Shown: positions 3,625 through 58,415 of the stretch, one piece after another
Position numbering within the stretch: the stretch's first letter is position 1
How the letters are laid out: every line of letters begins with the position of its first letter
Assembly (NCBI GenBank): GCA_019054805.1
Contig: JAHQIY010000005.1
Coordinates: 4,137,501 to 4,201,500, forward strand
Direction of reading: 5' to 3'
Origin: Brachionus manjavacas
Taxonomy: Eukaryota > Rotifera > Eurotatoria > Ploima > Brachionidae
Length of the DNA stretch: 64,000 nucleotides
Translations under genes and position numbers: made by a program
Notes under the pieces: generated by a model
The model's input: the letters and a program-made list of their open reading frames with translations, nothing else
Told to the model about the DNA's origin: nothing
Databases searched by the model: none

Positions 3625-5297
3625 TTTTCTAAAATAAAAAAGCAATATTTTTTCAAGGTCTAGATCAAAGTCGATATTTAAATTAAAAAAAATTAGTTTT
3701 TATAAGTTTATCTCATTTAATGAAAACGCTTTCAAGTTTGAGACTTTGTATCTTTCGATTTATTTATCAAAATTTACCACTTTTCACATATTTAATGTAA
3801 AAATAAAAGAATCACATCTCGCCAATTTATATTTTTAGCATAAATCATTATAAACTTAGGTTTAAAAAAAATTAAGTTAACATTTATAATCGCTTTATTG
3901 ATTCTTAGTTGAAATCGATTGAGCAAATCAATTTATTATGATTCGGCTTTTAAACATCATTTTAATCTACGTTATGAAGCATTTTTTTCTTTTTTTTTTG
4001 ATACCACACCTGCTTTTTTGTTGCCAAGGCAAAATTTGATTAATATTTTATTATTTATTTTTTTTGAAATTAAATATCTAAAATTAAATTAAATTTTGCA
4101 AATTAGAATTTTATGCAAACTATTTAAAATAAACTTTAAACTTTGATTATGTTTTTACATAATTTCAGGAAAAAAAGGTTTACTTCTTAGATAATTAATT
4201 AAATATATTGAATAGAAATAAACGATTTTCAAAATCTCTTTTGTTGTGAAAAGATTAAAAAATATGTGAAAAAAAGTTTAAATGATCATTAAATTTAGAT
4301 TCAAAAATTTCAAAGATCTATCTATTTTTGATTTTATCTCCAATTAGTTTTCTTCACTAAAATTAAAATCCTTGATAATTCATTTCTCTAAAAATACCTA
4401 AGAATCAGGAACATAGTAATTTGGAGCAATTTTTTTCTGGGGTAGACCAAATTGTTCAAAATAAATTTTAAAGAAATCAAACCATCTCTTGAATTTTCTT
4501 TATTTCAAAATTTTTTAAAAATGAAAAATAATTGCTTCCAACTTGACCAACTTCAATAAAAATAAAAATTATTGTTTGTTTAAATTATTAATGAAATTCT
4601 GGTAAACAAGATTTAAAGAAATGATTTTTTAGAAGCTAGGTCTTTTTATAAAACAATCAGTTTATATAAAAATTTTCAAGATAAGTATGTTTACAATTCT
4701 CTTCTTTTGGGATTTTATTGAAATTGATTTAACTTTTGCATCTTTTGTATGTTTTTAGTGATGATTATTTTAAAACAGAAGAATAATGCTGGGTTTATTA
4801 ATTTTTAAAAAAATTTCATTTCGAAAAAAGGGTAAGATCTAAATTTTAAATTAATTTTTTTTAGAAGTGATCCTTATTAAACAAAAGGTCTAGTTTTTTA
4901 ACTATGTTTTTCTATAATTTAATCAATTTTGCTTAAACTAAGACAAAAATAATCTAACAAAGACAGAACTTGGAATTTTTTTTGTTGGATCAAACTGTTC
5001 TTATTTTTACTTTAAAATTTATTGAATCATTTTAAAAATGGAAAAAATAACATAAAATTTTAATTTTTCAAAAAAATGACTTTTAATGTTGTTTTTTATT
5101 ATTCACTTAAATAAAAATAAATTTAATTTTTTAAGTATTATGATATTGGCATTAGATATTGATTTGAGATTGACTTTATTTGCCAATAAAAACACCTAGG
5201 TAAAACGGAAATGATCATTTGAGAATTCTTAAAAAAATTTTGTTCACCATTAATCTGATTTTTTTTAAATTTTAATTACAATTTTTCTGTATTTTGT
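3625..5297. other. AT-rich spacer between the two PAQR genes
   Basis: About 1.7 kb of low-complexity A/T DNA separates paralogue A's stop from paralogue B's proposed start. It must hold B's promoter and possibly an additional 5' exon. No conserved coding stretch or long repeat was seen. Confidence 0.55.
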
Positions 5298-6777
5298 TTA
5301 AAATTCAAACGAAAAATCAGCTTCAGTATGTGCAGTCAAACAGTCGCCAATCGTCAATCTGTAACTGGCAAGCTTAGTTATTCCATGAAAATGAACGTAA
5401 GCAGCCATTACCACGAATACATGGAAAATTTGGTGACTTTGAAACTAACAACAAAAAAGTTTTAATTTTTCTTTTTGATTATCAAAATTACCCATATATC
5501 AAATTTTCCAGGAAATAATCTCTCTGGTATACGAGCAGCATACAGACAGGCTCCTGTTATGTACAGTATAGCCATTAAAATAAGCCATCCTAAAGCTCCT
5601 ACATTAAAAGCTTTGTACGAGCCAAATACCAAAATGTAATGCAAGGCTGGAATAAGCCCACTAAGACCTAACGCTATGAACATGCCGGCACGAACGGCAC
5701 GGAACTGTGGTGTGCTGAACTTATCCCATAGGGAAACCACGATACAAGAGATTCCCAAAATTCCGATTAATACCAAATAAGCTATTTTCGGCAATGCATC
5801 GCAATAAAATGCGTAATACAGCCATGGAACAAAGGAACCCATTGTCAAAACCGAAATGCCACAATAGTCAATTCTTAAAAAAATATTTGAAAGTCGAAAA
5901 AAACGGCTTTGGCAAAATTTTACTTGCTAAATAGCTTTGATACATTAGGTGAATAGCAGTAGAATGTATGAAATAGGGCTGAGCATAACAAGCAGATAAT
6001 TGCGCCTATAAAAAATGCGCCGAAAATGATTTTTTCTTGAAATTTGATCTCTGGGTTTGGTCGGGTCCAAAAATATATAGCAATGGCTACAAATGAAATG
6101 GCGCCAATAAAGTGCGTCCATATATTACCGGTTTCTGTGTGAATACGAAATATTGATTTGAAGCAGGCTCTGACCGAGGGCAATGGTGGTCTATGGCCCT
6201 TGAGCAGGAAATCATTGTCTCTCAGCCAATTTGGTAGTGCATGGTGCGGCATTGCCTTCCAACCTGTTTCCCAAACATATTTCGCAAATTGTTCGACTTG
6301 TTCCGCACAATTATTGGGAACATATAAGATGTCATGCGGATCAAGCAGATTCTCGCACTCGACTGGGTCCCCTATCTAAGTTTGGAAGAAAAAATTTTTT
6401 TTGGTTTATTTTAATAAAAAAATTCAAACTACTTTTCCATCAACGTCTAATTTTACATTTTTTTTATCTTTTTTGTCATCAAGTGATCCATTTAAAGTCT
6501 TATTGATGTTTTCTTTTGTATTTCTCAATGCCGGATTTCTATTTATTAAATTGGATGACCAAAATATTTCACTAAGTTCAGAGTTTTTAAGCAAATTCAA
6601 TTGCTGCTGTTGAAGTTCTGCTTGTTGCTGCTTATGCTGCAAAGTCGATGGATACTTAATAGTATCGTCAGAATGGTTTGATGAAGAAGAGGCTGTCTTA
6701 GCAGACGAATTACCGGTACCATTTGATTTCGAAGATGGTGGCGATGATGACGCCGTTTTTTGATCATCTATCTCCAT
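5298..6777 (-). CDS. Adiponectin receptor-like protein, PAQR family (paralogue A, 441 aa)
   Basis: Four exons: 6777-6433, 6375-5924, 5873-5492 and 5444-5298. Phase closes to 441 codons plus TAA. The first exon encodes about 115 residues rich in Ser, Asn, Gln and Lys, probably disordered. Then come the conserved NCAEQVEQFAKYVWETGW and LRDNDFLLKGHRPPLPS blocks and seven hydrophobic helices. Zinc ligands expected of AdipoR are visible: SALFHTFYC, KIDYCGIS and HQIFHVFV. MGSFVPWLYYAFYC and FPGKFDIW are hallmark AdipoR strings. In the family these are membrane receptors controlling lipid and energy metabolism through an intrinsic ceramidase-like activity. This copy is the more conventional of the pair. 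Start: first ATG of an open frame. Confidence 0.93.
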
Positions 6778-9700
6778 TTTTGCTTATCTAAAATTAGACC
6801 ATCTTTAAAATAAAAAATGTTAAATGATAAGTAAAATTTATTTTTCAAAGTTTATAATTTGTTCAACTCAAAGCAAAAATAAAAAAGATTCTTGATTATA
6901 AAAATTTAAATTAGAACGCATTAAACCCCCAGGCTAAACAAGGTTTGTCCAAAGAATTTAAGATATTTGTGTCAAAATACTTTTTTTTTTTTAATTTCTT
7001 ATTTATTCATCTAAATTTATGAAATTATTTCCTTTTAAGTTCGACGGCGACATAGAAATTCCTGGTAACCTTGGATTTTTAGGATTACATAAAAATCTTT
7101 GAAAGATTACTTTATTGATAAGCTTGAATTTAGAGTTGATTTCAATCCATTAAAAAAATTCTGAATTTTAAATTCTCATCAATATCCAGAGCATCAAGCT
7201 TGTTCCTTTTAAAAATATATTCTAGTTTTTGATTCCGTAGCATTTCAAATCAATAAAATCATACATATGAGAACTTTGCATATTTATGAATTAATAATTG
7301 ACGAAAAAAAATTATTATTAATAAATAATAATAGCATAAATATTGTTAGAAACTGGTTACTTTGCATGTATAGACTAAGATTTTCAAAATTTATACTACA
7401 AAACTAACTGAATGTAATGTTTTGATTTAATAAATAAATATAGACTCAAATCTTATGATTTATTTATTTAAACAAGAAAAAATTTGTTTAATTTTAGCAC
7501 TTTAATTTCAAATATTAGTCCAAGATTTTCCGTATCAGCCCTTCTTTTACTTATGAACAAAATCTTAAGTCAATAATCTGTTTTCAATCACTTTTTTCTT
7601 ATTTAATCTGATTTAAAAACTCATTCTTATTTATAATCTTAAATTATCACATTTTTAACTAAGCTATGAAATAATTTATAAAAAGAAATATAGATGCTTT
7701 TCGAAAAATTATTTCCAAAGGACGTCATAGGAATCTTATTAATTAAAAGACATTTAATTATAAATATCTAGAACAGAATTATATTAATTGATAACTTATA
7801 AAAGAACTGAAATATACCTGGAATTGAATATCCAGAGAACAAAATTTAGAATTAAAATTTTTCGAAAAATAAACTCAGATTGATTTTAACAAAAAAATTT
7901 TCTTTTAGAGATAATTTAAGTTAGATCACAAAATTGGTTGCCGTATGAAAAAAAAAATTTTAGATACAAAGTCTGATATTTTTCTTCTTTGAACTTACTA
8001 TCTTTAATTTGAAAAAAATTTTGAAATTTTTTATTTTATTTCTTTGAATTACAGATATATTTGTGAATAATTTTGTTTTATTGGTAAGCAATAAATAGTT
8101 TGATGAAAAAAAATTCTCAATTATACTCTAATTACTATTTTCCCTTTAAAATTATACTAATTATGTTCTTGATTTAAAAAAAAATATTAGTGAATACTAA
8201 TTTTATTTTGTGGTTGATTTTTAATCTAAACCTAAAAAATTATTTGTTTGCTAAAAAATAAAATCCTTATTATCCAAAAATTTCTTGAATGATATTTTAA
8301 CAAATTCGTCCTGTGTAAAAAAAAATTGATCCATTAAAAAATTATCAATTCTGAGCATTACTTTGAATTGAAGGTAAACTGTGTATTAGCTGCTTCGGAT
8401 GATTTTTGCTGAATTGATGACTAAGCTTCAGTATTTCGGTAAGTAAAGAATCCACAATAAGTTTAAAGTAAAGCTATTTTTTATAATTTACTTATTTAAA
8501 ACTCAAAACAGTAATAATATTGAACATATGAATTATATCTCCTTTAAGTCTTCAATTCTCCAAACTCATTAGATTAGACTCGGCAGTCTGTCTTTGAAAG
8601 ATTCCTATTTAATAAAATTCAAAAATTCCTGACACTTCTGTGAGCTTTCTTTAAAATTTGGATTCAGTTTAGAAAACATATTTTGCATCATTTCAAAAAA
8701 CATTGAGCTTATTCTTAATTCTTATTTGACTCTATTGATATTTTATTTAGCAGCAATTACTGTACGTTTTCTATCTCATTTAAAATAAACATCAAAAGAT
8801 GTAATATTAAGACAGACATGCATATCTTCAGTTTCATTATTTATAAAAGGGATTTCAACGTCATGATCATTTACGAAAATTATAGCTTAATTACGAGAGC
8901 TAATGTTAAAAAAAGTTAAAAAACTTTTTTTTTTAGTGTATAGATTGTTTTGTAAAGTTACGTTTATCAACGCAAAATTAGGAAAATTCCGGTAATTTTA
9001 AGTAAAATTAATTAATTAATTAAAATTTAAAATTTTTTTGAAAAAATCCAAATTTATCAAACCTATCTTTTATGATCTAAATAAGATGTGGATTTTGATG
9101 GACTCTAACTCTTTTCTATAAATCAAATATTGCGAAAATAAATTCTTGTTAATTTTTTATTCTCTTCTTCCTCATTCCAAATCATTTCTGAATCAGAAAA
9201 TTGGGTTCAGATCTGGAGTGTGATGATCTGAGGGAGACCCAAACAATGCTTTAAAATATATGTTTAAACCCAGTTTAATATCAATTCTCAAAAAAATCAA
9301 GTCATTTAGCAGATTTATGCTTTTTTGTTACAAAAAAAATGTTACAACAGACTCGCTAGCGCCCAAAAGATTTTATCCCAAAAATTTAGCACATCTAAAA
9401 ACGATTTTAACAAGACTTAATACAAAAAAAGCTTTAAAAAATGATAGAGAAACCTCAAAAAATAAAAAATAGAGCTTTTTTAGAGATCAATTAAAAATTT
9501 ACAAAATAAACTCTTATTGAAAAAAAAAATCAAATCAAAAAAAAAATATAAATTTCTCAGACCATTTTATCTTTTTTTTGGTATATAATTTATTTAAAAT
9601 TTTCATCCAAAAATTTTCAACGAAAAATTAAGCTAAAATTTTTCGGATTTAAAAAGAAATTGAAAAAATGAATAATTAAAGCGAAATTATAAAAAATAAA

Positions 9701-21510: not shown

Positions 21511-22020
21511 AACAACAATTATACTTAATTTATAACACCAAAAGAAAATTTTTTAACGATTATTCTACCAAGTCATTGAAAAATAGTTGTGGTTTTTGGA
21601 ATAAGTTTAAAATTTTGATTTAAAATTTAAGAACTTCAGAATTTAAAAAAAGGATAAGATAATAAGGCAGAGGAATAAAATTTTTAGAATAATAAATCTT
21701 TAAAAATACAATTGATTAGGGATTTAATGGCATTATTTTAAGAGATAATTTTAATTATTTTGAAATTATAATTAGAGATCTTTTTTATTTTCATATGAGA
21801 TCATTAATTCCTGATGATCAAGTAATTATTTATTGAGCTCAATTGAATAGGTCCCTCGATAAAATTACTTTTTTAGAATAGTTTATTTATCAATTTGCAT
21901 TTAACCCTAAAAGCTAGATAAAAAAAAAAGTAAGCAAAAAAAAAATGTAACTAATTTTTAACAAATCTAAACATACTACTTTTTAGATTTTTATTTAAGG
22001 CAATTTCGATTTTGATTTTT
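21511..22020. other. AT-rich 3' flank of the giant TPR gene
   Basis: About 0.5 kb with no ORF. On the minus strand, AATAAA-like words (TTTATT near 21883 on the plus strand) could serve as the polyadenylation signal of the TPR-TIR gene. Confidence 0.4.
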
Positions 22021-25000
22021 TTAATCGGAAAAGATAAAATCAATTATTAAAATAATTAAATGAGCCAATGATGGATTATTGAAAAGTGATTCTTCGTCAA
22101 ATTTTCCCAATGTAGTCATATCGAAAAATTCTAGACCATCTTCTTTCAAAATAATTGCATTAATATTTTTAAAATACTTTAGCGAAAACTCAGCTCTTTT
22201 TTCACTCTTAAGCTCATTAATGTAAATTGTCGGATATTGAAGCACAATTGGAAAAATTTCTAAATTATTGTCAACAGCTTGTCTAGTCTCAAATTGTCCG
22301 ATTTCGGAGGCATCGTAGTCAGGCGTCAAAAAGTTTACAAATATATCCGACTTTTCCAAAGCTGTCAGATCCTCTTGCTTATCGTTCAGAGCAACAGAAA
22401 AATTCTCTTTACTTAAATAACATTTTAAACCAAATTTAGTCAAAAAGTTATAAATTGCAAAAACTTTTTCTTTTGAACCAACATTAAAAGACAAATAAAT
22501 CCGATTAGCCTCAATGTCTTTCATCAGACCTTTATCAATCATTTCTCTTAGTATGGGTAACCATTTGTGTCGTTCATCCTCTAATCCGAAAACTAATTGC
22601 GCATGGAATATGGCTAGATTTCTCATATCTAAATATGTTTTAGGTTCCTCGCTATTTTCCTCACTCCTTGTGAGAATTTGGACACATTCAATGGATTTTT
22701 TGTACGCTAAGATGTGACCACGATTGAGCGATATTTGCTTCAAAAAATCGGCCAAGGCTTTTTCAAAATCTGTCTGTGACATGTAAATAAGGCCTCTTTG
22801 GTAATAAACACTTGATATTTTTTTAGCCACAGCTTCGGGAACCTCAGTAAAACCATCAATAATGTGGGAAAATTGCTCCAGCGCTTTGTCCAACATGTCC
22901 ATTGCCTTGTAGCACAATCCCAAATAGAATTTTAGCAAAACATTTTGAGGCCGGATCTTTTCCAAGATTTCTAGACAGTCAGCATATTTTTCCAAATAGA
23001 AATAGCAAATTCCAATTTTAAAGCTGTACTTTGGGTGGTTCTCGAAATCGGACTCGAAATATTCATTAAAATGCTCGAGACTTTTTTCAGCATCTGATTT
23101 AGAATTGGACAAAATTGTCAAATCAAAATAAATATTTCCCAACAAAAGACTCAATTGTTTTTCATTTTCTTTAAAACAATCCGAAGTCATAATTTCACCT
23201 CGGATTGTCTCAATAATTGATCGAAATTTATTCTCATAAGTTTTCTTCAAGTCTTCTCTGAGCTCATTAATTTTTTGTCTCAAAGTGTAAAAATCGGCAT
23301 GTGCTTGGTAAAATTTGCTCAAAATCAGACATTTTTTGTTGCTTGAACCAGATGATGCAAATTTATCCAGCAAATTGCTTGCTTGGTCATATTTTTTCAG
23401 TGAATACAGAACAACACCATTAATAAAATAAACTTCTTTAGTGCTACTAAATGCACCCTTGGAAACAAACTTGTAGTCAATAAATTTATAAACTTGACCA
23501 TTTGGCGTATTTACGATTTTGTTCTCAGAAAATTGGACTTGGTCACTCGAAATTTCTTTCGAGACACCTGTCCACAATTTAATAAGACTCTTGTAGAATT
23601 GGTACATGTTATCTTTGACTAAGCACAGATACTCAATTTGTTCAATTTGAGCAGATAGCTTTTCCAGATCGTTGAAGTTGAGCCAAAATAGACTGGAGAT
23701 TATATAGGCCTGGTAGTCGCTAATATAATCAGACAAAGCGTAATTTGGCATATTCATCACAACTAAAGGATATGTTTTTAAAATGTGGTCATAATTTTCC
23801 AGTCTATAGTAGATTGATAATAGGCAAAGAATTGATTTTTCGTAAAAGCGACTATTGCTGTGTACTTTTTTCAAATTTTCCAAAGCTGTCTCATCCTTGT
23901 CCAAATTCATGTAGCTGACACCCATCATGAAAAAGTATTCGGATAAATTGTTGTCTGCTGACGAGTAGGAAAACGCTTGAGAAGCATCCTGAACTTTTAA
24001 AAGCTGCATTATACACGATTTGTATTCCTCTCTTTTAAAGTGATAAATGGCTATGTCAAAATTTACATTGTCCAAGTTTATGTTTTCACTGACACTACTT
24101 GTCAAGCTATTCTCCAATTTATTAACAAACTTGGTCATGTAACTCTGAATTCCTGCTCTCTCTTGTGGCTCGTCATTATCTAATAAATAAAGTTCAGTTT
24201 TGAACATGTAATAGTAGGCTTCTTGTAGGTGTTCTTTTGCCTGGGGATAAGAGTCCTCATTGCAATTGATCATAAATTTAGACAAGTCTCCTTTTGCATT
24301 ATTGCTACTTAGATATAAAATCTTGGCCTTGTAAAAAAGAATTTCGTAATTTGAACCGAAAAGTGAAGCAGCTTCTTTGGCAACATTAATCGAATTTTCC
24401 AAAGATTTTTCATTCTTAAACTTTATCACACTTAGATCAATTTTGAGCTTTTTTAGCATGACAAATTCTTTGAGTCTGGGCGACGAGTTTTGTCTAAGTC
24501 GCTCGAACAATTCATTGAATTTGATGTAATCGGGACTGAGCATGTCGGTAGCTGGATTGGAGAGAATTTTTTTCGCATAACATTTTACCAACAGATAATC
24601 AGCTTCTTCCGAATTTTGAGGGTCATTTTTGAATTTAGAGGCGAGAATTTTTTCAAAAAAGTAAATTGATTTTTCCAATAGAGCCACTTGATTAAGCCTG
24701 TAATAGAAGAGTCCCTGAAGCATCAAGGACTCTGCGTAATATTCTGAAGTAAACTTTATTTTTTTGAATTTGTCTGTCAACGCCTCGAATTCCGATTTAA
24801 GACTCGTTATTTCTTCCTGATCAGTGACTTGTTTCAAATTTTCATAAATAGCCTTGCCGTAAAAATAGACCAAATTTTCTTTTTGATTTTGGTTGAAAAA
24901 ATTTGCTGACTGGTCGAGTTCATCGACTATTTCGGCATATTTTAGTCGAATTTTTTGATATTCCAAGCTCTTTGAAAAGACCATATTGAATGCACTTAGC

Positions 25001-28000
25001 CATTTGTAGACAATGTCTGGCAAATCAATTTCTCTGAGCAGAAAAACTGACTGAGATTTTTGACACTGTTTAATTACTTCATTTAAATTAAGATTTTCAA
25101 TATCTGAATCCGAATTTAGAATAGAGATCAAGTTGCTTAGAAATGAGTATTCTTTTTCAAAATTTGGTCTATGAATCTCAGCTAAACAGTGAATACAGAT
25201 TAGATTTTTTTCCTCACGCAGAATATTAAAAGGTAGAGAAGTATTGTCCATGATCAGTTCTGGCTTACGATCAGACAAATACTGCTCGAATAAATTGCTC
25301 ACTTCATTTAGCGCCGGTTTGTCATTCTTTTCCTTATTCAACTTAAAAATTGAAAAAGCTTTGAGAAACAAAAGGTCTTTCATGTTGACCATAAGATTTT
25401 CAAATTGTGAAATTATTTCCAAAATGTCGGCAAATTTGCTCAGATGAAACATAGACCAAAGTTTATAGTGTAAAATTTTGTAAAATGTTTGCTGAAGCCT
25501 TGGTAATAGAGTGAAATTTTCGAATTGAATCAAATCCTTGGTAACAAAATTGAGAATTGGTTTTTGGAAAAGAGCGAGAAATTCAGTAGCTTTTCGCGAG
25601 GCTATCTTATAGTTTTCCACTGCTGATTCCTGATTTCCAACACTTAAATAATAATTGCCAAGATAAAACGGAATTTTAACCAGGTACTCTTCAATTTTTT
25701 CTTTCAATTCTTCATCATAGTTTTGGGTTTTGTCAAAGCTTTTCAAAAATTCAGACGCCTTGACAAGACTGCCCGCCTCGAATAGCACACATGCCAAGCG
25801 AAACTTTGATTCCTCATAAAATTTACTCTCTTTTTTCACATATTGCAAGTGATTAATGGCTTTTGAGCGGTCTGTGTCACTATTTTTGCCAAGATTGATC
25901 ATCGATAGTGCCAAATAGAAGTGGACATCGCTCAATTTTAGGTCATCGTGTTTAAAAAATTTTTGCTCCAGAATAGACTCAAATTGATCTAGTGAAACTT
26001 GGTAATTACCGGCAAGATAATTAATAATCGCTTCTTGGTACTCTAAATTTTCGTTATCTATCAAAAATAGATCATCATCATGAGCTGTTAAGTTAGATAG
26101 CTCGTCTCTAACACCTCTAAGCGTATCCATTGAATTTAAAAAAATTTTCGAGTCAGTCTTGTCCGGGTAGTTTAAGTAAATTACAGATTTTATGTATTTG
26201 AGGTTGAGAATTTTATTCTTGCTCGGACTTTGATTTGTAGTTTTAGATATGGTGAAAAAATTTTGAATAGACTTAATGGCATCGTCACAGTAAGCTTTGG
26301 TCTCGTCTGAATTTAAGTTTTCTGTGATTATTATCTTGTAGAGACACATGGCTTGGACATAATAAAAGAAAATATTTTGAGGAAAATTTGTGATGCATTG
26401 GCCTGTCAAAAATTTTTTAAGCTCGTCAAATTCGGCCAAATAATACAAAGAAAGAGATTTTTTCTCTAGAGCTTCGATCACTGTCGGATTGAAATTTTTA
26501 AAGTCAAAGTTGTATTCGCACAAAAATTGATTACAAACTTCCAGTGTGAAAGAAAAGTATTCGTTCCATTTTCCATGCGAATTTGATTTAAAGTAATCAA
26601 TAGCTAGTTTATAATTTGATTCAATCAAGTAGTGAGTCAATTCAGATAGCTCCTCTTTGTCTTTGTGGTCAACTGATATTTCCTTGAATTTTTTGATGGC
26701 TCGGACAAAGTCGGGTTCTTTCTTGTTGCATAAACATATTCCAATAAAGTACCTGGCTAATTCTATTTTGGGCACTTGTTTGGGCAAGTCGTCATCACTT
26801 GGTTTATACTTGTTGAAGTATTCGGTGGCATTTTTGTAGTCTTCAAGCCTGTATTTTGAATACCCGAGGTAAAAATTCACCTCATTTGCCTTTTTCTCAT
26901 TTTTTAGCTTAAAAGTTTTTACCAAAGCAAAAAGCATTTCGAACGATTTTTCAAACATGTCTATGTCGTTTAGATAAATACCCAAATAATAGATCAAATC
27001 ATATACATCAAATTCTCTGAAAGCAGGAAACTTTTTGCTCAATTCGTCGATTTGAGACCGCTTGAGACACTCGTTGACCATTTGCTTCACATCTGAAGCA
27101 TCCGAAAGCTTTTCGGGATTTTTGTAGTACAAAATTTCTATCAAAATTCTTATGCCATCTTCATATCGGGAATAATATTTGGTAGTCAGAACACTTGCCA
27201 AATAAAATTTGCTGGTAAGTTTAAGTTCAAGATCGAAATTTTTGAAAAATTCTCTCAATAAACTATGATTTTCATCTTTTTCTATTGAAATAATGTGCTC
27301 CAAAAAATATTTATAAGCAGTTTCCAAGTAGGTGTCCGATTTGAACTTAAAGAATAGAACCATTGAAGACATGGCAAATAGGAACATGAAGTCCGAGTAT
27401 TTTTCGTGTGTGGGAAAAAGTTTCTCTTTTAAGAAAGAATACAATTGTTCGAACTTTTCAGCGTAGTACAGACACCAAGTGCGAATGACCAAAATTTCAA
27501 AATATACTTTGTCCAGCTGGCTAAAATTTTTTCCCTCCAAAAGAGAGTCGGCTTTTTCTATTAGCTTCAAAAGCGAATTGTGTGAGTTAATGGTTTTTTT
27601 GAGTATGTCAGGCTTAGCCAAATGAAACAAAGTTTTTACAGTGTAGTAGTTTAGATCATCCCTGGAGTCAAAATCGCAAAAATCTTTATCTTCCAATGGT
27701 CTAAATTGACTCAATGCGAGATCAAATTTTTTTTTCTTATACTGTATTAGGCCTATTTGAACGCGACTCTCATTAAAATAGTTATACCTACGCTTTACAC
27801 TTTGAAAGTATTCCAATGCCTTGTCCCAAGTTTCCTCTTTATTCTGGTATATTAGTCCAAGATGGAAATTAATTCCATTTAACACATTTAGCTTGTTTTT
27901 TTGGCCAATTTTAACCGATTGGTCACTCATTGAGCTTTGAGAGCTGGTCATCGAATTCTCGTTTAGGCTAGAATTTAATTCTTTCAACAACTCCTTACTC

Positions 28001-31000
28001 TCTTCTATTAAATTTAGGCTGTAAAACACGATAGCTTTAAGAAAATCTAGTTCTACTCGGCTAAATTCTTCTATATCAATCTTGATCTCTAGTTTTTCTA
28101 GTTGAGTTTTTTCCGAATGATCCAAATTGACCGGTTTATTAAATGCTTCGACCAATTTGATCATGTCGTATGACTTGGAATGTTTTGATGTTAGCTGAGC
28201 AATCAAACCAAGATAATAGTATGAATTAATTACTTTTAATTCGTATTCATCATTATTTAAATTTTTGATTGTTTCTAGAAATTTTTTAAAATAATCCTCA
28301 CTAATGCCCAAGTAATTAGTGCGGTCTTGATCAGAAAGAGAAAATTTTATTTTCAAAAATTGTCTAATCTTAGCCAGGGCACAATAGTAAAGGTACTCAA
28401 ATGATTCTGGAAAAGCTTGGAGAGCAGCAATGCTTTTATTGAATACTTTTTCGAAATCAAAATTCACCTTGTAGTCAATTAAAATTGAATAGAAAGTTTT
28501 TGTGCTGGACATATTGGCAATTTTATCCAGACTACTATTCGAGACCAATTGATCAAATTGCTCTAAATAAGAATTTAATTTTGACTTGATCAAAGCTTGA
28601 CTTGATTTGGAAGATTTCAAAATTAAAAAGAACAAACATTTTAATTTTAAATATTGAAAATTTCCACTATCCTCTTGCAAAAAATCATCAGGTAGCTCAC
28701 TAAATTGACTCAATGAGTTGCTATAATCTTCCAAATTGTAGAAGGACACGCCAGTGTAGTAAATCACTTGATTTCGCTTATCTTCAGAGCGTAGATTGAC
28801 TATTTTTTTCAAATTTTTCAAGGCTTTTTTGTACTCTTTGTTCTTGATTAGACTCCGTGCGAGAACTAGTTTGCACTCATCGGTGTAAAAAGCCTTCATT
28901 TTGGGGTCTTTGTCGACCATGTTTAGAATCGAATCGAGCAAATAGGTGGTCTTGGTATAATCATCTAGGTACAAATAGGACAAAGATTTATTGTAAAGTA
29001 AATCACACTCGTTAAATATGTCATGAGTGAGGAGTCTGTATTTGTTTGGCTCTGGCTTAGTTGCTTGGTTCATTTTGGACGAGTCAAAGTATTCAATTGA
29101 TTTTTTGTAGTTTTTTAAATCTTGATTCATCATTGCTAAAAAGTAGTATGCATTGCTGACCATTTGATTATTGTCCAGAGACTCTTTAGATTTAAACTCA
29201 TCTATAAAAATGTCCAAGTGTTTGATGGACTCGCCAAAGAGCTTGAGTCGGTAGGCGATCATGCCTGCGTAGTAGCGGAAAATTTTCAATTGTTCTAAAT
29301 TTTCAATTGCTTCGTTGGCTATTTGGTAAGCATTTGTATAATTCTGGTCAATCAAGTAGCTTATTAAAATTCTAAAATAATAATATTTTTCATTTTTTAT
29401 TTCACATTTTTCTATCTCTTGGTTAAATTTGTTCATTAAAACTTTTAAATCGTCGTCTTTGTTGTCCAACCAAGCCTTAATTGTCAAAAAAACCAGGCAT
29501 TTGAGCTTAAAAATTGCACAGTCATATTTTGGATGAATGCTTGTCTTAAAAGAGTGTGGTATTTCCTCCAAATCTTTGAGTGCGTCCATTATGAGATCAT
29601 AGTCCTTGTTGGCATCCAGTTTGTACAATGACAGAGCGTGATAAAAGTTTATCTCATGCTGAATTTCACTATCTTCTATGCATAAATTTTCCAATAGTGT
29701 TCTGGCGTGTTTGTAATCGTTGTTGGTAAAGTTGAGAATTCCATTTATGAAAATTACATCTTCTGTGCAAAAGGCCAATTTTGGTTTCAGTTGCTTCAAT
29801 TGAGTGTAGCTTGATTTTAAAATCTTGCCACATTCCGCAAAATTTTTAGTCCTAAAAAAACACAGCAAAATAAAGTAAATGACTTCAAATTCATCAAATT
29901 CAGGCCTATCTAAATGCACGTCGGCCTCCTTGCTTTTGTTAAAAATATCCAAAATGTTCTCAAAATTTTTCAGTGCCAGTTGCGGACTGATGCTTTTTTG
30001 TCTCAGATGAAGAACATTTTTGTAAAAAGAGGCCATCATGTTTTGCTGTTGGCTCATAAATTCCCTACTTAGCAAAGCATTCGATTTTCCATAATCCTTA
30101 AGATTGAAATAAGAAATTCCAGTGAACAAAGTGGCACGGCAAACAATTGACTTTTCTTCATCGGGATCAGTTTGAAAATCGTTATTGGCAAACAAATCAA
30201 TGCCCAATTTGGGACACGCCGTATTGCTCAATACAACAAGCTCGCTGTCCAACTTGTTCCGATGTAAATTCTCAATTAGATTTGAGAATATTTGCAAATA
30301 AGTAAGTCTTTCTTTCTGATGGGTGACTTTTTTGTTCTTAAGCAGCATTTCAAAGAATAATTCTTTGGCTTTGGAAAACGATTCATAGGACACATTAACC
30401 AAGCATTGGGTTTTGGCAGACAGTTTTTGATTTATTTGCGGATTGTTTACAATAAATTTTGTTATTTTATTTCTGTAAAAGTCCAGATAGTCTTTGGGGG
30501 TCGAGTATCTTCGTTGTATGTCGAAAATATTTTGGATGTAGGGCTCGGCGCGACCAGTGTCCAATCTCAGGTAAATGAGCGCCAAGTAAGACATGACTCC
30601 TATGTTTTCGGGCTCAAGACGTTCCGCCTTTTTCAGTGTATTCAGCGAATTCTCAAAATCAAAGTTGTCATATTTCACAATGGCTTTCAGCAAAAGGTAA
30701 TTAACACACTTTAAGTCAAAATACAAATGATAGTCTATTTTGGCATAAATGTTGATTTTTTTCACGTCCATGACGTGTTTGTTATGCTGGAGCAGATTTT
30801 TTTCCTTGACCAATTTTGGCATTGAATCGAACAATTTGCCATAATTAAACCAGTCCGCATGCTTTAACTCATTTTTGATGTCATAGTCAAAAAATTGATT
30901 TAAGAATAAACTTTTAGATCCACTCTTCCACTCCTTGGAAATAATGTGACCCAATTGCTCCATAGCTTGTTCTTTTTTGTTAACTTTGGCGTAGGCTACG

Positions 31001-32331
31001 GCCAAAAAGTATCTCAATTTGGCGCTATTGTCCGGAATGAGAATTAAAACACGCTTGAGCAATTCGATCGAACTGGCCAAGTCTTCTTTTCTCAGAATCA
31101 GTAGATTTTTTATTAAGTAAAAATTCGAGTTTAGCCTATTTAACTCAATGGCTTTGTCAATGTATTTTTGGCACTTGGAGTCCTTGTTCAATCGCAAACA
31201 GTTTAGACTCATTAGATACAAATAGTTGCCTATTTTGTAAGTGTCCAACGAGTCTGTGTGAAATCGGAATTCGACTAGTGGTAGTTGAAACTGATTTTCC
31301 AGATCATCCGAGTTTTGGTAGGTTTTCAAAATGCTCATTATGCTTGAATAGTAATCGAGGCGTTCTATGTGCTGGTTTAGCTCATTATTGTCGCTATCTG
31401 TGACCAGAGCGATACAGTTGTCTAGCTTTTCCAGCACTTGGTCGCAATGTTGCGGGTCACTTAAGATCAATTCAAAAGCCTGAATAAGAGAATTTGTGAT
31501 ATAGACTTCTTCTTTTATGCGCTTGTTGGCATAGAGGCTGAGTATGCGGTCATTGATGCGTGACAAGCCGGCCTGATCTCTCATCTCAAAGTAGTTCATT
31601 GCGATTAGCTCGAACACTCGCGACAAGTGCTGGATTTTGAGCGTTTTTTCGCAATAGATGAGCGATGAGTCAAAGTCTGAAAGCATAAAATAGCACAGAG
31701 CAATGTGGTAATAGCACAAATAAAAATTTGAGTCCTCAGAGACAATCTTGTGAAATTGTTCAATGGCTAGATCGTACTTTTTCTTGAACATGTTTATGGA
31801 TGCAAGGCAAAATTTGGCCAATATGTGGTCGCGGTTAAGTCTTAGCAGCTTGTCGAAATTTACCTGACTCTGATCGAAACGATTTAGCAAAAAATTTCTC
31901 ATTCCTAGGAGAAAAATGGCCTTTTGACTAGTGGGATTGATGTTTAGAGACAACTGGAGTTGTACTTCGGAGTTGGTGTATTGGTTTTTGGCAAAATAGA
32001 CATGACCGCGCAAAATGGAGGCCTGTTCGGGTGAGACATCGTTCAGTTTGTTCAAATAGTAGTTAGTGTGGTTGAATTTTTTCATTTCGATCAGAACATG
32101 TATCACTTGCTCGTAAGATGGCACGTGCTTGGGATCGCTCAAGATGGCATGGTGAAAATAATGGAAAGCTTTTTCCAGCTGCTTTTTCTTGCGCAATTGA
32201 ACCGCGCCATGGTAGTACCGGTCCCTAAGCTCGACCCAGTTAGCAATCGAGTTGATCTTGAATGAATCGTCACAGTCACAAAGACGCCCAAGGTCTTTGG
32301 ACAGCTCTTTCGAGTCGTTCGAATCGCTCAT
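22021..32331 (-). CDS. Giant intronless TPR-repeat protein with C-terminal TIR-like domain (3,436 aa)
   Basis: One uninterrupted ORF. The ATG at 32331 is directly preceded by an in-frame TAA, which fixes the start of this frame. From residue 35 or so to about 3,200 the chain is helical repeats of TPR type, with recurring pairs such as AFHYFHHAILSDPKHVPSY, FYLCYYHIALCYFMLSDFD and KIGICYFYLEKYADCLEIL. Lengths vary, so many repeats are degenerate. The last 160 residues resemble a TIR fold: RIYLSFNVGSKEKVFAIYNF (strand A and helix A), LKCYLSKENFSV, ALEKSDIFVNFLTPDYDASE, then GQFETRQAV, where Glu 3348 falls at the place of the catalytic Glu of NAD-cleaving TIRs, then EIFPIVLQYP. TPRs are protein-binding scaffolds, and TIR domains either signal by self-assembly or cleave NAD+. 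A sensor with a TIR effector is inferred, not shown. No signal peptide or membrane segment was seen. It has no introns, although its neighbours have many. Confidence 0.9.
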   Translation of the reverse strand: MSDSNDSKELSKDLGRLCDCDDSFKINSIANWVELRDRYYHGAVQLRKKKQLEKAFHYFHHAILSDPKHVPSYEQVIHVLIEMKKFNHTNYYLNKLNDVSPEQASILRGHVYFAKNQYTNSEVQLQLSLNINPTSQKAIFLLGMRNFLLNRFDQSQVNFDKLLRLNRDHILAKFCLASINMFKKKYDLAIEQFHKIVSEDSNFYLCYYHIALCYFMLSDFDSSLIYCEKTLKIQHLSRVFELIAMNYFEMRDQAGLSRINDRILSLYANKRIKEEVYITNSLIQAFELILSDPQHCDQVLEKLDNCIALVTDSDNNELNQHIERLDYYSSIMSILKTYQNSDDLENQFQLPLVEFRFHTDSLDTYKIGNYLYLMSLNCLRLNKDSKCQKYIDKAIELNRLNSNFYLIKNLLILRKEDLASSIELLKRVLILIPDNSAKLRYFLAVAYAKVNKKEQAMEQLGHIISKEWKSGSKSLFLNQFFDYDIKNELKHADWFNYGKLFDSMPKLVKEKNLLQHNKHVMDVKKINIYAKIDYHLYFDLKCVNYLLLKAIVKYDNFDFENSLNTLKKAERLEPENIGVMSYLALIYLRLDTGRAEPYIQNIFDIQRRYSTPKDYLDFYRNKITKFIVNNPQINQKLSAKTQCLVNVSYESFSKAKELFFEMLLKNKKVTHQKERLTYLQIFSNLIENLHRNKLDSELVVLSNTACPKLGIDLFANNDFQTDPDEEKSIVCRATLFTGISYFNLKDYGKSNALLSREFMSQQQNMMASFYKNVLHLRQKSISPQLALKNFENILDIFNKSKEADVHLDRPEFDEFEVIYFILLCFFRTKNFAECGKILKSSYTQLKQLKPKLAFCTEDVIFINGILNFTNNDYKHARTLLENLCIEDSEIQHEINFYHALSLYKLDANKDYDLIMDALKDLEEIPHSFKTSIHPKYDCAIFKLKCLVFLTIKAWLDNKDDDLKVLMNKFNQEIEKCEIKNEKYYYFRILISYLIDQNYTNAYQIANEAIENLEQLKIFRYYAGMIAYRLKLFGESIKHLDIFIDEFKSKESLDNNQMVSNAYYFLAMMNQDLKNYKKSIEYFDSSKMNQATKPEPNKYRLLTHDIFNECDLLYNKSLSYLYLDDYTKTTYLLDSILNMVDKDPKMKAFYTDECKLVLARSLIKNKEYKKALKNLKKIVNLRSEDKRNQVIYYTGVSFYNLEDYSNSLSQFSELPDDFLQEDSGNFQYLKLKCLFFLILKSSKSSQALIKSKLNSYLEQFDQLVSNSSLDKIANMSSTKTFYSILIDYKVNFDFEKVFNKSIAALQAFPESFEYLYYCALAKIRQFLKIKFSLSDQDRTNYLGISEDYFKKFLETIKNLNNDEYELKVINSYYYLGLIAQLTSKHSKSYDMIKLVEAFNKPVNLDHSEKTQLEKLEIKIDIEEFSRVELDFLKAIVFYSLNLIEESKELLKELNSSLNENSMTSSQSSMSDQSVKIGQKNKLNVLNGINFHLGLIYQNKEETWDKALEYFQSVKRRYNYFNESRVQIGLIQYKKKKFDLALSQFRPLEDKDFCDFDSRDDLNYYTVKTLFHLAKPDILKKTINSHNSLLKLIEKADSLLEGKNFSQLDKVYFEILVIRTWCLYYAEKFEQLYSFLKEKLFPTHEKYSDFMFLFAMSSMVLFFKFKSDTYLETAYKYFLEHIISIEKDENHSLLREFFKNFDLELKLTSKFYLASVLTTKYYSRYEDGIRILIEILYYKNPEKLSDASDVKQMVNECLKRSQIDELSKKFPAFREFDVYDLIYYLGIYLNDIDMFEKSFEMLFALVKTFKLKNEKKANEVNFYLGYSKYRLEDYKNATEYFNKYKPSDDDLPKQVPKIELARYFIGICLCNKKEPDFVRAIKKFKEISVDHKDKEELSELTHYLIESNYKLAIDYFKSNSHGKWNEYFSFTLEVCNQFLCEYNFDFKNFNPTVIEALEKKSLSLYYLAEFDELKKFLTGQCITNFPQNIFFYYVQAMCLYKIIITENLNSDETKAYCDDAIKSIQNFFTISKTTNQSPSKNKILNLKYIKSVIYLNYPDKTDSKIFLNSMDTLRGVRDELSNLTAHDDDLFLIDNENLEYQEAIINYLAGNYQVSLDQFESILEQKFFKHDDLKLSDVHFYLALSMINLGKNSDTDRSKAINHLQYVKKESKFYEESKFRLACVLFEAGSLVKASEFLKSFDKTQNYDEELKEKIEEYLVKIPFYLGNYYLSVGNQESAVENYKIASRKATEFLALFQKPILNFVTKDLIQFENFTLLPRLQQTFYKILHYKLWSMFHLSKFADILEIISQFENLMVNMKDLLFLKAFSIFKLNKEKNDKPALNEVSNLFEQYLSDRKPELIMDNTSLPFNILREEKNLICIHCLAEIHRPNFEKEYSFLSNLISILNSDSDIENLNLNEVIKQCQKSQSVFLLREIDLPDIVYKWLSAFNMVFSKSLEYQKIRLKYAEIVDELDQSANFFNQNQKENLVYFYGKAIYENLKQVTDQEEITSLKSEFEALTDKFKKIKFTSEYYAESLMLQGLFYYRLNQVALLEKSIYFFEKILASKFKNDPQNSEEADYLLVKCYAKKILSNPATDMLSPDYIKFNELFERLRQNSSPRLKEFVMLKKLKIDLSVIKFKNEKSLENSINVAKEAASLFGSNYEILFYKAKILYLSSNNAKGDLSKFMINCNEDSYPQAKEHLQEAYYYMFKTELYLLDNDEPQERAGIQSYMTKFVNKLENSLTSSVSENINLDNVNFDIAIYHFKREEYKSCIMQLLKVQDASQAFSYSSADNNLSEYFFMMGVSYMNLDKDETALENLKKVHSNSRFYEKSILCLLSIYYRLENYDHILKTYPLVVMNMPNYALSDYISDYQAYIISSLFWLNFNDLEKLSAQIEQIEYLCLVKDNMYQFYKSLIKLWTGVSKEISSDQVQFSENKIVNTPNGQVYKFIDYKFVSKGAFSSTKEVYFINGVVLYSLKKYDQASNLLDKFASSGSSNKKCLILSKFYQAHADFYTLRQKINELREDLKKTYENKFRSIIETIRGEIMTSDCFKENEKQLSLLLGNIYFDLTILSNSKSDAEKSLEHFNEYFESDFENHPKYSFKIGICYFYLEKYADCLEILEKIRPQNVLLKFYLGLCYKAMDMLDKALEQFSHIIDGFTEVPEAVAKKISSVYYQRGLIYMSQTDFEKALADFLKQISLNRGHILAYKKSIECVQILTRSEENSEEPKTYLDMRNLAIFHAQLVFGLEDERHKWLPILREMIDKGLMKDIEANRIYLSFNVGSKEKVFAIYNFLTKFGLKCYLSKENFSVALNDKQEDLTALEKSDIFVNFLTPDYDASEIGQFETRQAVDNNLEIFPIVLQYPTIYINELKSEKRAEFSLKYFKNINAIILKEDGLEFFDMTTLGKFDEESLFNNPSLAHLIILIIDFIFSD
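22120..22510 (-). other. TIR-like domain at the C-terminus of the TPR giant (about residues 3274-3404)
   Basis: Order of elements seen: hydrophobic strand IYLSF, helix, strand LKCYLSK, DLTALEKSDIFVNFLTPDY (typical 'aI.kSd..v..lSp.Y' TIR core), ASEIGQFETRQAV (Glu helix), and strand IFPIVLQYP. The BB-loop is short, and the usual D-D at its end is replaced by SKENFSV. The assignment rests on eye alignment only. The Glu codon is at 22288-22290. Confidence 0.68.
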
Positions 32332-37582: not shown

Positions 37583-37762
37583 ACACGTTCAACACACGAA
37601 CAATTAAGTATGGCGAAGCAATACCAGCATTTTGTCACATAATAGAAGAATTGTTCAACAAAGCAATGCCAGGTCTACAAATAGGATTTCGGGAGCAACT
37701 CTTGAAGGCCAAATGTTGGAAACGATTAGCAGAAACCAGAAAGACACAAAACGTGAAATAGA

Positions 37763-40700
37763 ATGCAAACCGACAGGATCAATTACAGATATCAAAGCAA
37801 GAGCTCGAATTCAAACAGAAACACAGGCTACGCGAAAAAACCACAAGCTTATACAATTGAAGCGGAGGAAAATGCAAGTGACAGCGAAATGGAAGCACAT
37901 ACGATCTACTGCGAGAGCCTCAGTTGTAGAAGCGTTAAAAAAGCATATTTGACGAGAGAAGACATGAACGTTGAGTTAGACAAAAGCAAGCTTGAAGTAC
38001 CAATGTTGATTGATAGCGGAGTCACAGCATCGTTTATCAACATTAACAAACTGTGCCCGAAAATTGCAGATAAAATAAGCAAGTTTGTGAATGGAAAAAA
38101 CACTAAGAACGAATTTGGACTGAAAAGAATCGATTTAACGATGAAATCAGCTTTGAACTGTAAGTCCTTTAATTGTGCAATCGGCAAAGTGAAGCTAAGC
38201 ATTAACAAATGGAAAGGGGAGTACGACTTCATCTTTACCGACATAACAGAAAAAGCTATATTGGTAATGGATTTTCTCCAAAAATTCTATATCGTTTTCG
38301 ACTTTGGTTCAAAATCAATTACATTAGACGATAAAAGCGAAAAGCATCAAATTAACAACGTCAGCGAGACTGAGTCACAGAAGACTAGCAATGGTACGAT
38401 TTCGATCGATTCAAAGCGAGTTGTTAAAGCAAGGTGCGAGAAATTGATCAAAGTCAATGTTGGAGATACCGAAGCTAAAACTCAAGTAATTTTTGAACCA
38501 CAGCCGTGTTCTATTGCTAAGCTAGATCGCGGATTAGTTTGGGCAAGAAGTATTAACAAAGAAGCAAACGATGGCACTTAAGCGTTTTAAACCTTACTGA
38601 CAACGATGCAACCATCGAAGAAAAAACTGAAATAGGTTAGCTAGAAGAAGCCAAAATCTTGGAAGAAAAAGAAGATTCTCTAAAGCTGAAAAACGGCGAA
38701 ATTTATTGGCACAAAATCAAAATCGGTCACGACCTATCAAAGAAGCAAAAAAAGCTAATCCATGAACTCGTTGAGCGGCACAAGGACGTTTTTCAATGGT
38801 CGGAATTCGATACCGGTGCAACGAACCTTACCGAACACAGAATAGAGACCGGAGATGCTAAGCTAAAAAAACAAAAACCTTATCGTTTGCCACAAGCAGC
38901 GCAAGAGGAAGTCACACGGCAAGTAAACGAAATTTTGAGCAAGAACATTATTGAAGAAAGCAGGAGTCCTTGGTCCAGTCCGATTATCTTAGCAAGGAAA
39001 AAGAGCGAAGACGGCAAGCAAAAGTACCGATTCTGTATCGACTTTAGGAAGCTCAACGGTATTACGATCAAAGACGCTTACCCGTTATCGAGAATCGACG
39101 ACACGATAGACGCCTTAGGCGGTTCCAAATACTTCGCCACACTGGACATGGTAATATTTTGGCAAATACACTAATCAGGAAAAGACAAGGAGAAAACGGC
39201 ATTCATTACTAAAAACAAGCTATACCACTTCAACGTAATGCCGTTCGGTTTGAGTAACGCCCCGTCGACATTTCAACGGCAAATGGACAATTTGTTGCAA
39301 GGACTGTCATGGGTATACCGTCTAGTCTATCTCGACGACGTGATAGTCTTTTCGAGAGACTTTGGTGCTCATCTTTCCCGGTTAGAACAAGTTTTAACGC
39401 GTTTTAAGCAAGCAGGACTCAAGCTCAATCCAGGCAAGTGCCATTTTTTAAAAAGCAAGCTAAATTACCTTGGTTTATGAGGTAAAGACCATTTGCGAGA
39501 TGAAACCACTGAAAAGCAATGAAGAAATAAAGCGTTTTCTTGGCATTATGTCCTATTACAGGAGATTCATCGCACACTTCAGCTCAAAAGCATCATGCTT
39601 GTTCGACTTAACCAAATAGAAAGCAACATTTTTGTGGACAGACGAAACACAGTAAGCTTTTGAAAAACTCAAGAACCAACTAACTAAAGCACCCATATTA
39701 GTTTTTCCTGATTACAGACTAAATTTTGTTATTTATTGTGACGCATCCGTAGTAGGAATTGGAGCAGTCTTGACACAAGAAATTGACGGAATAATTCATC
39801 CAATCGCATTTGAAAGTAGACTACTAGACAAGCACGAAAGAAACTATTCCACAAGCGAGCGAGAAATGCTGGCGATTGTTTGGTCGTCGAAACATTTTAG
39901 AATATACATTTTTGGGAGGCATGTTTGATTCTTCACCGATCACAAGCCACTCAGCACGTAGGAAAAATCCAAAGAGCCAGACGGACGACTCTACAAGCTT
40001 TTCCTAAAACTCCAAGACCTAGATCACGAGATAATTTACTATCCAGGCATTTTAAATTAAACTGCAGACCTACGTTCTAGACCCAACGTAAAGATAAGCA
40101 AACTAGACGTCGGAGTCGATATCGACTGGGAAAAAGAACAACATAAAAACAAGCAACTCTCAGTAATCCTGATTGCCATAAAAACAAATAACAAGAACGA
40201 GCTAGACGAATTAGAGAAAAGCCAAACCTGGAAGCAATGCATAGAACGGTTGATAATCGAACAAGGAGCACTCAACTACTTGAACGGTCAAAACGAAGAA
40301 GCCGTAGTAGTTCCAAAACACTTAACCACACAAATTTGCAAGATTTATCACGATTCAATCACATCAGGTCACTAAGGATTCGAAAAGACCTTTAGAACAG
40401 TAGCAGCAAGGTTTTATTGGCCAAAGATGAAAAGCGAAATTTATGAGTATTGCCAAACATGCGACTCGTGTCAAAAGCTCAAACCGAAAACAAGCATGAA
40501 CAAGAGTCCTCTTATCACCATAACAATTTAAGGAGCTTGGGATTTAGTCTGTATAGACGTGGCCGGTCCGCTTAAAGTCACACAAGACGTTGACAAGAAC
40601 TTTTTCTTGGCAATAGACCATTGGTCAAAATACTGCATCACTGGTGCAGCGCCAAATATCACTACGCAATACTCTACATCGTTTGCAAAGAAAAAACAGA

Positions 40701-41035
40701 TGGATATTTTTGGAGCTCCTTACTCAATATTGGCAGACCAAAGAGGGAATTTCGAATCGAAAGAATTTGAAACGTTTTGCAAGGAAATCGGCATCAAGAA
40801 ACTGAGAACGACTAGTTACCATCCACAATGCAATGGCCTAGCGGAGCGTACGATAAAACTCACGACAATAAGTTGGAGAGGTGAAAAGTTTCAAAAAAAA
40901 ATTTATAGGACCTTACGAGATCGTTAGACAAATCAACGAGGTCAATTTCGAAATTATCAACCCCGTAACTAGAAAAATACAAGTCGTACATCGCAACAGA
41001 ATGCAAAAATATTTTAGCAGGTCTACGGCTTAAAC
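37763..41035 (+). pseudogene. pol: Gypsy pol remnant (protease, RT, RNase H, integrase)
   Basis: Domains in order: aspartic protease (MLIDSGVTASFI, about 38007-38040); reverse transcriptase (SPWSSPIILARKK, FCIDFRKLNGIT, MPFGLSNAPSTFQ, and the YLDD box in VYLDDVIVFS near 39330); RNase H (YCDASVVGIGAVL, YSTSEREMLAIVW); integrase with zinc-binding CQTCDSC, catalytic-core CIDVAGP, ADQRGNFESKEF and YHPQCNGLAER; and a C-terminal stretch ending VVHRNRMQKYF (about 41010). In-frame stops include 38638, 39172, 39617, 39653, 39926, 39959, 40058, 40373 and 40529. Frame changes occur near 38580, 39480 and 40890, the last in an A-run. Part of the integrase C-terminal region is deleted. Described as a dead copy. 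Confidence 0.88.
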
Positions 41036-58000: not shown

Positions 58001-58415
58001 TGCCATTCGAAGACGAGTTGTGAATGACAGAGCTGTACCGTATTGATTTGTTGCATTGCACTGGTACCAGCCTTGATCGGCAGCGGTCGGATTTGTTATA
58101 ATCAGTGTGCCTGCATTGCTTTTCATTGCAACTCTGTTGTTTTGGGAACTCGGGTCGTAAATACGTTTGTCTCTGGTCCATGTGTATTTTGGAGGTGGAT
58201 CGCCCTTGGCCACACAGGGTATTTCTATATTTATACGAGGGTCGAATATGATTTCCTTGTCGGCTTGACGAATTATCGAGGGCGGGGATGGAACTTTGGA
58301 AGAAAGAAAAGGTAAAGTAGCGGTGTAAATTTTACTAAAGTTTCTTACTGGCAAAAATCACAGCAATGGGTACAATCAAATAGGCCAAGTAATGTGACAT
58401 TGTATCAAGATGCAT
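52077..58415 (-). CDS. Nrg: Neuroglian/L1CAM-family cell adhesion molecule (1,328 aa)
   Basis: Thirteen exons: 58415-58349, 58293-57430, 57299-56556, 55216-54812, 54760-54534, 54481-54208, 54157-54018, 53957-53787, 53732-53578, 53510-53329, 53272-52979, 52590-52392 and 52341-52077. All phases close. Signal peptide in exon 1 (LAYLIVPIAVIFA). Six Ig domains (e.g. CVAKGDPPPKYTW..YQCNATNQYG; CDADGRPAPNKVDW..FSCNVTNKHG; CVTFGAPKPQIFW..YECIATNKYG; the last ends YTCVARTEVDE). Five FN3 domains follow, then one TM helix (WFIGMMVSVILLIIILI) and RERGGKYSV, typical of neuroglians. The cytoplasmic tail has DSMAEYGNGENGKF and the ankyrin-binding-type FIGLYG, and ends TSFV, which fits a class I PDZ ligand. 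In the family it is a homophilic adhesion protein of neurons and septate junctions, linked to spectrin by ankyrin. The second Met (58400) could also serve as the start. Confidence 0.95.
55217..56555 (-). other. 1.3-kb intron inside the sixth Ig domain of neuroglian
   Basis: All other introns but one of this gene are about 50-130 nt. The sequence is plain A/T-rich DNA with no strong repeat or coding stretch. Confidence 0.6.
57318..57425. repeat. Tandem duplication of about 52 bp in a neuroglian intron
   Basis: A unit containing TTTGTTTAGTTTAAATGATA and TTTAATAAAATTTAA occurs twice in direct succession (about 57322-57373 and 57374-57425). It accounts for this intron being about twice the usual length. 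Confidence 0.8.

Follow-up and report, generated by a model that had tools for sequence, protein, structure and literature searches.

What does a single 10.3-kb open reading frame in a rotifer genome encode, and does its lack of introns say anything about where it came from? The question is raised by a stretch of 64,000 nucleotides from Brachionus manjavacas (contig JAHQIY010000005.1, positions 4,137,501 to 4,201,500; hereafter the window, with positions counted from its first letter), the minus strand of which carries a gene for a protein of 3436 residues, here referred to as the giant gene and the giant protein. The analysis described below assigns a probability of roughly 0.6 to the reading that this is an apparently single-copy, uninterrupted nuclear gene whose product joins a giant solenoid of partly degenerate TPRs to a C-terminal TIR domain and serves as a scaffold for sensing or assembly, with the TIR as its output.

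Extent and coding character of the open frame

The claim of one 10.3-kb open frame, made in an earlier note on this DNA, was borne out, and the frame and its immediate flanks are as follows:

22021..32331, minus strand: giant TPR-TIR protein P0001, a single open frame of 3436 codons plus stop, ATG to TAA
32332..32334, minus strand: TAA in frame, immediately 5' of the ATG
21990..21995, minus strand: AATAAA poly-A signal, starting 28 bases past the first base of the stop codon

At the base composition of the gene itself, a stop-free run of 3435 codons has a chance of ~10^-115, and the GC contents of the three codon positions (0.39, 0.24, and 0.40) differ in the way expected of coding DNA. The AATAAA motif lies in AT-rich surroundings, with 3 further copies within 234 bases, and could be there by chance. 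In the window, which has a GC content of 28%, the next longest frames are 313, 303, 274, and 271 codons long (~0.8 to 0.94 kb), and the frame of 3436 codons is a clear outlier. The accompanying statement that introns interrupt all other complete genes at intervals of 100 to 400 nt was overstated, given neighboring frames of up to 313 codons, although the contrast with the giant frame stands; the introns of the neighbors were inferred from broken frames, not from gene models.

The TPR solenoid

Most of the giant protein consists of the following region, defined by Pfam, profile, and PDB matches:

22717..32193, minus strand: TPR/alpha-solenoid region, approximately residues 47 to 3205, many repeats degenerate

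The Pfam families TPR_2 (E = 7e-26), TPR_1 (5e-16), TPR_19 (1.1e-15), TPR_12, TPR_6, TPR_8, and TPR_20 all scored over their cut-offs in the giant protein, with TPR_16, TPR_9, and TPR_11 falling under theirs; the last such match before the TIR domain is TPR_8 at residues 3174 to 3205. At the other end of the chain, residues 47 to 236 are matched by an engineered TPR protein in the PDB. A TPR profile iterated on the giant protein itself recovered 28 stretches, 21 of them with E < 0.01; of the latter, 20 lie between residues 176 and 3196 and one falls inside the TIR domain. These motifs leave gaps of up to ~520 residues (227 to 737 and 2241 to 2760), the first of which includes the Pfam TPR_19 stretch at 415 to 463. 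The content of Gly plus Pro is 2 to 5% in each 200-residue block of residues 1 to 3200, which fits an all-helical solenoid, and many of its repeats appear to have decayed past recognition. Internal similarity is weak (20% identity between residues 751 to 1050 and 1072 to 1323, E = 2e-5), self-comparison in search of a regular superrepeat gave just 6 weak nonself matches, and the autocorrelation of hydrophobicity at lags of 25 to 49 peaked at 0.048, not above that of shuffled sequences (0.059). A scan with NCBIfam returned 8 TPR families, every one below its cut-off. The description of the chain as almost wholly TPR-like thus holds in that TPR families are present far beyond chance but goes too far in view of the long motif-free gaps.

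The TIR domain and its conserved positions

Two features of the C-terminal part carry the second half of the assignment, the domain itself being supported by Pfam, an AlphaFold model, and structure matches and the glutamate position by aligned TIRs:

22204..22500, minus strand: TIR domain (Pfam TIR_2, PF13676), residues 3278 to 3376
22288..22290, minus strand: codon of E3348, the NADase glutamate position

The TIR_2 family, for which the cut-off is 28 bits, scored 34.0 bits in the giant protein (E = 4.8e-8), 33.5 bits in its last 237 residues alone, and, in a profile scan of the whole genome, 34.9 bits at the C terminus of the giant gene, so that the C-terminal TIR-like domain proposed from the sequence is confirmed by a significant profile match. 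In an alignment of the giant TIR with 13 other TIRs of the same genome, the column of E3348 holds Glu in all 14 rows; Glu is likewise kept in 7 of the 7 rows of an alignment with bacterial and viral relatives, and a profile alignment places this column on a Glu of Caenorhabditis elegans TIR-1.

Several results weigh against reading this domain as a functional TIR output. According to the accessible part of PMC7075850, this Glu occurs in >70% of all TIRs, so that E3348 says little on catalysis. The giant TIR is also divergent: among the 23 columns in which 11 or more of the other 13 TIRs agree, 12 are kept, 9 are departed from, and 2 are gapped. The departures include F3282 (Tyr in 13 of the 13 other TIRs), Y3305 (Trp in 11), S3307 (Asp in 13), V3313 (Gly in 12), F3334 (Cys in 12), and G3345 (Cys in 13). 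The columns of S3307 and V3313 are presumably those of the Asp of strand beta-B and the Gly of the BB loop, respectively, and neither the Asp nor the Gly common to the TIRs of the genome is retained. The structural evidence is mixed as well. An AlphaFold model of the end of the chain, based on a seven-sequence alignment (mean pLDDT of 63), matched mostly TIR structures, but Foldseek ranked the nucleoside hydrolase DNPH1 first, ahead of any TIR, and the 5 matches at E <= 1e-3 comprised 4 to DNPH1 and 1 to the RPS4/RRS1 TIR pair. Because TIR rows were part of its alignment, this model is not an independent test; residues 3030 to 3436 modeled without an alignment reached a pLDDT of 36, and that model was not used. 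A phmmer search of the PDB with the last 237 residues found no relative at E <= 1. As judged from sequence, there is about one chance in three that the giant TIR is an NADase that cleaves NAD+, the odds being reduced by the loss of the beta-B Asp, the BB-loop Gly, and the Cys three positions before the Glu, although the Glu itself is kept.

Copy number, missing introns, and origin

A search of the assembly (114 Mb in 61 contigs) with residues 438 to 3436 of the giant protein matched a single place at E <= 1e-4 (9 candidates scored) and found no gene similar to the giant one. The giant gene is apparently single-copy, and membership in a multicopy family was rejected on the basis of this one match.

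The absence of introns had been taken as a sign of retro-copying or of horizontal origin. As a control, the TEP1 gene of the same genome was considered; it is an uninterrupted frame of 2825 codons (2612 codons without a stop in the part that was read) that includes WD40 matches at C2:2236843-2237076. Its identity is supported by the TROVE domain (E = 1.6e-101), by two TEP1 propeller families over the cut-off, and by a match to telomerase protein component 1 in the PDB (E = 2.1e-47, query residues 794 to 1013). In vertebrates, TEP1 is divided into dozens of exons. Long frames are also found around domain matches in general: 2825 (TEP1 itself), 963, 923, and 729 codons for the longest around WD40 (150 scored of 1029 candidates), up to 1612 and 1333 codons for the 57 TPR_12 matches in the genome, and at least 600 codons for 17 of the 42 other TIR_2 matches, the remaining 25 of which lie in frames of 84 to 492 codons. 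Since the TPR_12 search misses the giant gene itself, it could also overlook further giant TPR-TIR genes with repeats of that kind. Because TEP1, an ordinary animal gene, is uninterrupted too, lacking introns are weak evidence of origin here, and their use as a mark of horizontal transfer or retro-copying was rejected in the light of these frames. The missing introns fit the look of several long genes of this genome, making a foreign or retro-copied origin unneeded. The practical caution for readers of this genome is that the great length of an open frame does not, on its own, point to foreign DNA.

Retro-copying from a parent gene with introns, giving a processed copy, would account for the uninterrupted frame and the AT-rich 3' flank, but no parent was seen in the search with residues 438 to 3436, which would detect parental exons at E <= 1e-4, and such an origin is highly unlikely; in a variant of it, the event may be old and the parent since lost. 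Very unlikely too is that the gene descends from a bacterial TPR-TIR conflict protein that was gained horizontally and is intronless for that reason. Bacterial proteins combining TIR and TPRs do exist (the group 6 TIRs in the available portion of PMC7075850), and the assembly does contain a contig of bacterial type, albeit not the one that carries the window. The codon usage of residues 1 to 600 is unlike that of a hand-chosen host set of 14 open frames from TIR regions and 6 window exons (r = 0.25), whereas that of residues 601 to 3436 is host-like by the same measure (r = 0.89). The GC content at third codon positions (GC3) is 0.56 in the first 300 codons and 0.50 in the next 300 and declines to 0.27 in the last 136; of all the results, this gradient and the 5' codon usage alone would be easier to square with a composite origin, although high GC3 is also seen in two other TPR frames (0.46 and 0.52) of this genome. 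The domain order of the giant protein is the reverse of that in group 6, the TEP1 control shows the same uninterrupted architecture in an ordinary animal gene, and, for the C-terminal 407 residues, none of 55 pattern matches in prokaryote genomes was confirmed as a relative in a search suited to close relatives only. The matches that prokaryote genomes did yield were two TPR-only ones on plasmids of the cyanobacterium Planktothrix (E = 3e-4 and 4e-4). One TIR alignment, used as a query, found 5 loci in Anaerolineales and 1 viral contig, which were taken as alignment rows; three further TIR alignments found nothing among viral contigs, and the whole giant protein found no relative there. The PADLOC models gave 0 families at E <= 0.01, with no match to a bacterial antiphage TIR system.

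Other TIR genes of the genome

The genome holds 43 TIR_2 matches, 42 of them over the cut-off. Pfam was run on 20 frames from 19 of 20 10-kb regions; of these frames, 19 held TIR_2 and one, a wrong frame, was Peroxin-13; the L019 frame was left out, and 5 further frames (L011 and L040 to L043) were scanned. For 11 single TIR_2 places and 4 copies of the repeats on contig C26, frame length alone is known. A second TPR-TIR candidate of 771 residues (L040:311-2623) combines, in one frame, an array of TPRs with a TIR-like domain at the C terminus; its repeats are of the TPR_12 and TPR_10 families, and its TIR_2 match is below the cut-off (22.0 bits against 28). A BLASTP comparison of the giant protein with this candidate gave no significant match (best E = 0.093).

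The remaining TIR genes differ in architecture. L016, L017, L018, L020, L026, and L028 form a single-frame family of ~600 to 685 residues with the TIR domain around residues 380 to 570, a helical N-terminal half in which no Pfam family exceeds its cut-off, and a C-terminal tail with PEFFY-like end motifs that looks SAM-like by eye. The helical halves of the other TIR proteins are ARM-like by eye alone, and Pfam names no family for them. Two single-frame LRR-plus-TIR proteins (L041:614-2764 and L042:541-2514; 658 and 717 codons, respectively) look Toll-like by eye; another TIR frame (L043:651-1895) has a frame upstream of it that looks LRR-like. The single frame L011:415-3198 encodes COR-A and COR-B and, after them, two stretches of TIR_2. 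A tandem TIR gene array occupies C26:17838-37443 and C48:143075-149761, in steps of ~6.46 kb near contig ends; the two members that were read (L030 and L031) encode an identical protein.

Proposed function and the main rival

No hydrophobic N terminus was found in the giant protein, and its highest 19-residue hydropathy (1.67; the next values are 1.36 and 1.32) falls in the final helix, behind the TIR domain, which suggests an intracellular location. This strongly hydrophobic last helix (residues 3416 to 3436, window positions 22024 to 22086) could be the last helix of the TIR domain or, possibly, a tail anchor. On the model of SARM1, plant TIR receptors, and bacterial TIR systems, the solenoid would recognize protein partners or assemble on them, and clustering driven by these partners may gather the TIR domains; the output of the clustered domains could be either TIR-TIR assembly or NAD+ cleavage. 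The suggestion of a sensing arm driving a TIR effector is a fair reading by analogy, given the support for both the TPR solenoid and the C-terminal TIR domain. An immune role of the protein may be proposed by analogy alone, which counts among the points against this reading.

The main rival is a nonimmune scaffold with a degenerate TIR: a structural or trafficking protein of the kind seen in cilia, cell division, or RNA decay, with the TIR reduced to a docking module devoid of an immune or NADase role. Among natural TPR chains of solved structure, CDC27/APC3, TTC37/Ski3, and MamA come nearest, and there is a weak Pfam match to the TT21 domain (E = 0.049). The matches to CDC27 and TTC37, however, reflect generic TPR similarity and are weaker than those to designed consensus TPRs. 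Such a role would also agree with the loss of several otherwise common TIR positions and with an apparently single-copy, very long gene, unlike expanded families of immune receptors. Still, the TIR domain scores over its curated cut-off and retains the Glu and 11 other common columns, and a purely structural role is possible, although unlikely.

The reading as a scaffold whose output is the TIR can be carried one step further: the giant protein might be an immune or cell-death receptor of rotifers, with a TPR solenoid of ~3000 residues controlling one catalytically active TIR. This more specific version is rather doubtful. If true, it would place the giant protein among the largest TIR proteins known, in a group reported to have few or no Toll-like receptors, and the giant TPR-TIR gene and the related single-frame TIR genes would take over the sensing of pathogens or damage. 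The rotifers surveyed in the accessible text of PMC8609888 had no Toll-like receptors save in one species. Since such receptors are lacking in nearly all rotifers of that survey, the question becomes how rotifers sense infection, for which the giant gene and the other TIR genes of this genome, including the two with LRR plus TIR, are concrete candidates.

Neighboring genes and the assembly

Upstream of the giant gene, at a distance of ~5 kb, broken frames similar to reverse transcriptase and integrase (37608 to 40927) represent, by eye, an LTR-type retroelement, one piece of which gave a match to a spumavirus-type protease family. Ig domains are encoded by two frames, 0.81 and 0.94 kb long, at 56491 to 58357, and two similar adjoining genes lie on the minus strand at 2390 to 6783; the second of these matches HlyIII, which we take to be of the adiponectin receptor type, and the first is alike by eye. 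The Ig-domain and HlyIII genes of the window, and TEP1 elsewhere, indicate that the genome is that of an animal. Rfam and tRNA scans of the window found nothing. Elsewhere in the assembly, contig C21 (1,221,242 bases) carries what appears by eye to be a bacterial operon for a cytochrome bo3-type oxidase (L044, C21:119055-123401), with a subunit I frame of 661 aa. This operon gave the only COX1 match among the matches listed for the assembly, which included no mitochondrial COX1, and C21 is probably a bacterial symbiont or a contaminant.

Comparison with known systems

SARM1 and C. elegans TIR-1 have the ARM-SAM-TIR architecture, with two SAM domains, an intact BB loop, and proven NADase activity. 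The giant protein resembles them in having a helical-repeat arm, a C-terminal TIR, and the Glu position but differs in having a TPR arm instead of ARM and in lacking SAM, for which no Pfam family was found at E <= 0.1; the ARM type is represented in it by the subthreshold TT21 match alone. Nor does the giant protein have the layout of a Toll-like receptor (LRR ectodomain, one transmembrane helix, and TIR): Pfam finds no LRR family in it, and its peak hydropathy lies behind the TIR domain, in the final helix. In the available part of PMC7075850, the group 6 TIRs, mainly from Actinobacteria, often have an N-terminal TIR and C-terminal TPRs and exceed 700 residues; they are like the giant protein in being large and in joining a TIR to multiple TPRs but are bacterial and have the order reversed relative to its C-terminal TIR.

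Similar to the giant protein in layout is the 771-residue candidate from the same genome, in which TPRs also precede a C-terminal TIR-like domain, although it is far shorter and has TPR_12 and TPR_10 repeats. Among other invertebrates, TIR-TPR proteins are a named class in the oyster Crassostrea gigas (PMC4346834) and in Aplysia californica (PMC9334734), both sources being available in part. Like the giant protein, the molluscan class has TIR and TPR in one polypeptide, a comparison made by class name only, and nothing of 3436 residues appears in those parts of the sources; among the matches listed from the open-access literature, likewise seen in part, there was no TPR-TIR protein of ~3000 residues. 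The remark in the earlier note that no described eukaryotic protein of just this layout was known to its author therefore needs qualification: the combination has a name in the oyster and in Aplysia, as far as these sources go, and it is the size that has no counterpart in them. The giant protein is thus of a known kind, and what is exceptional about it is its size.
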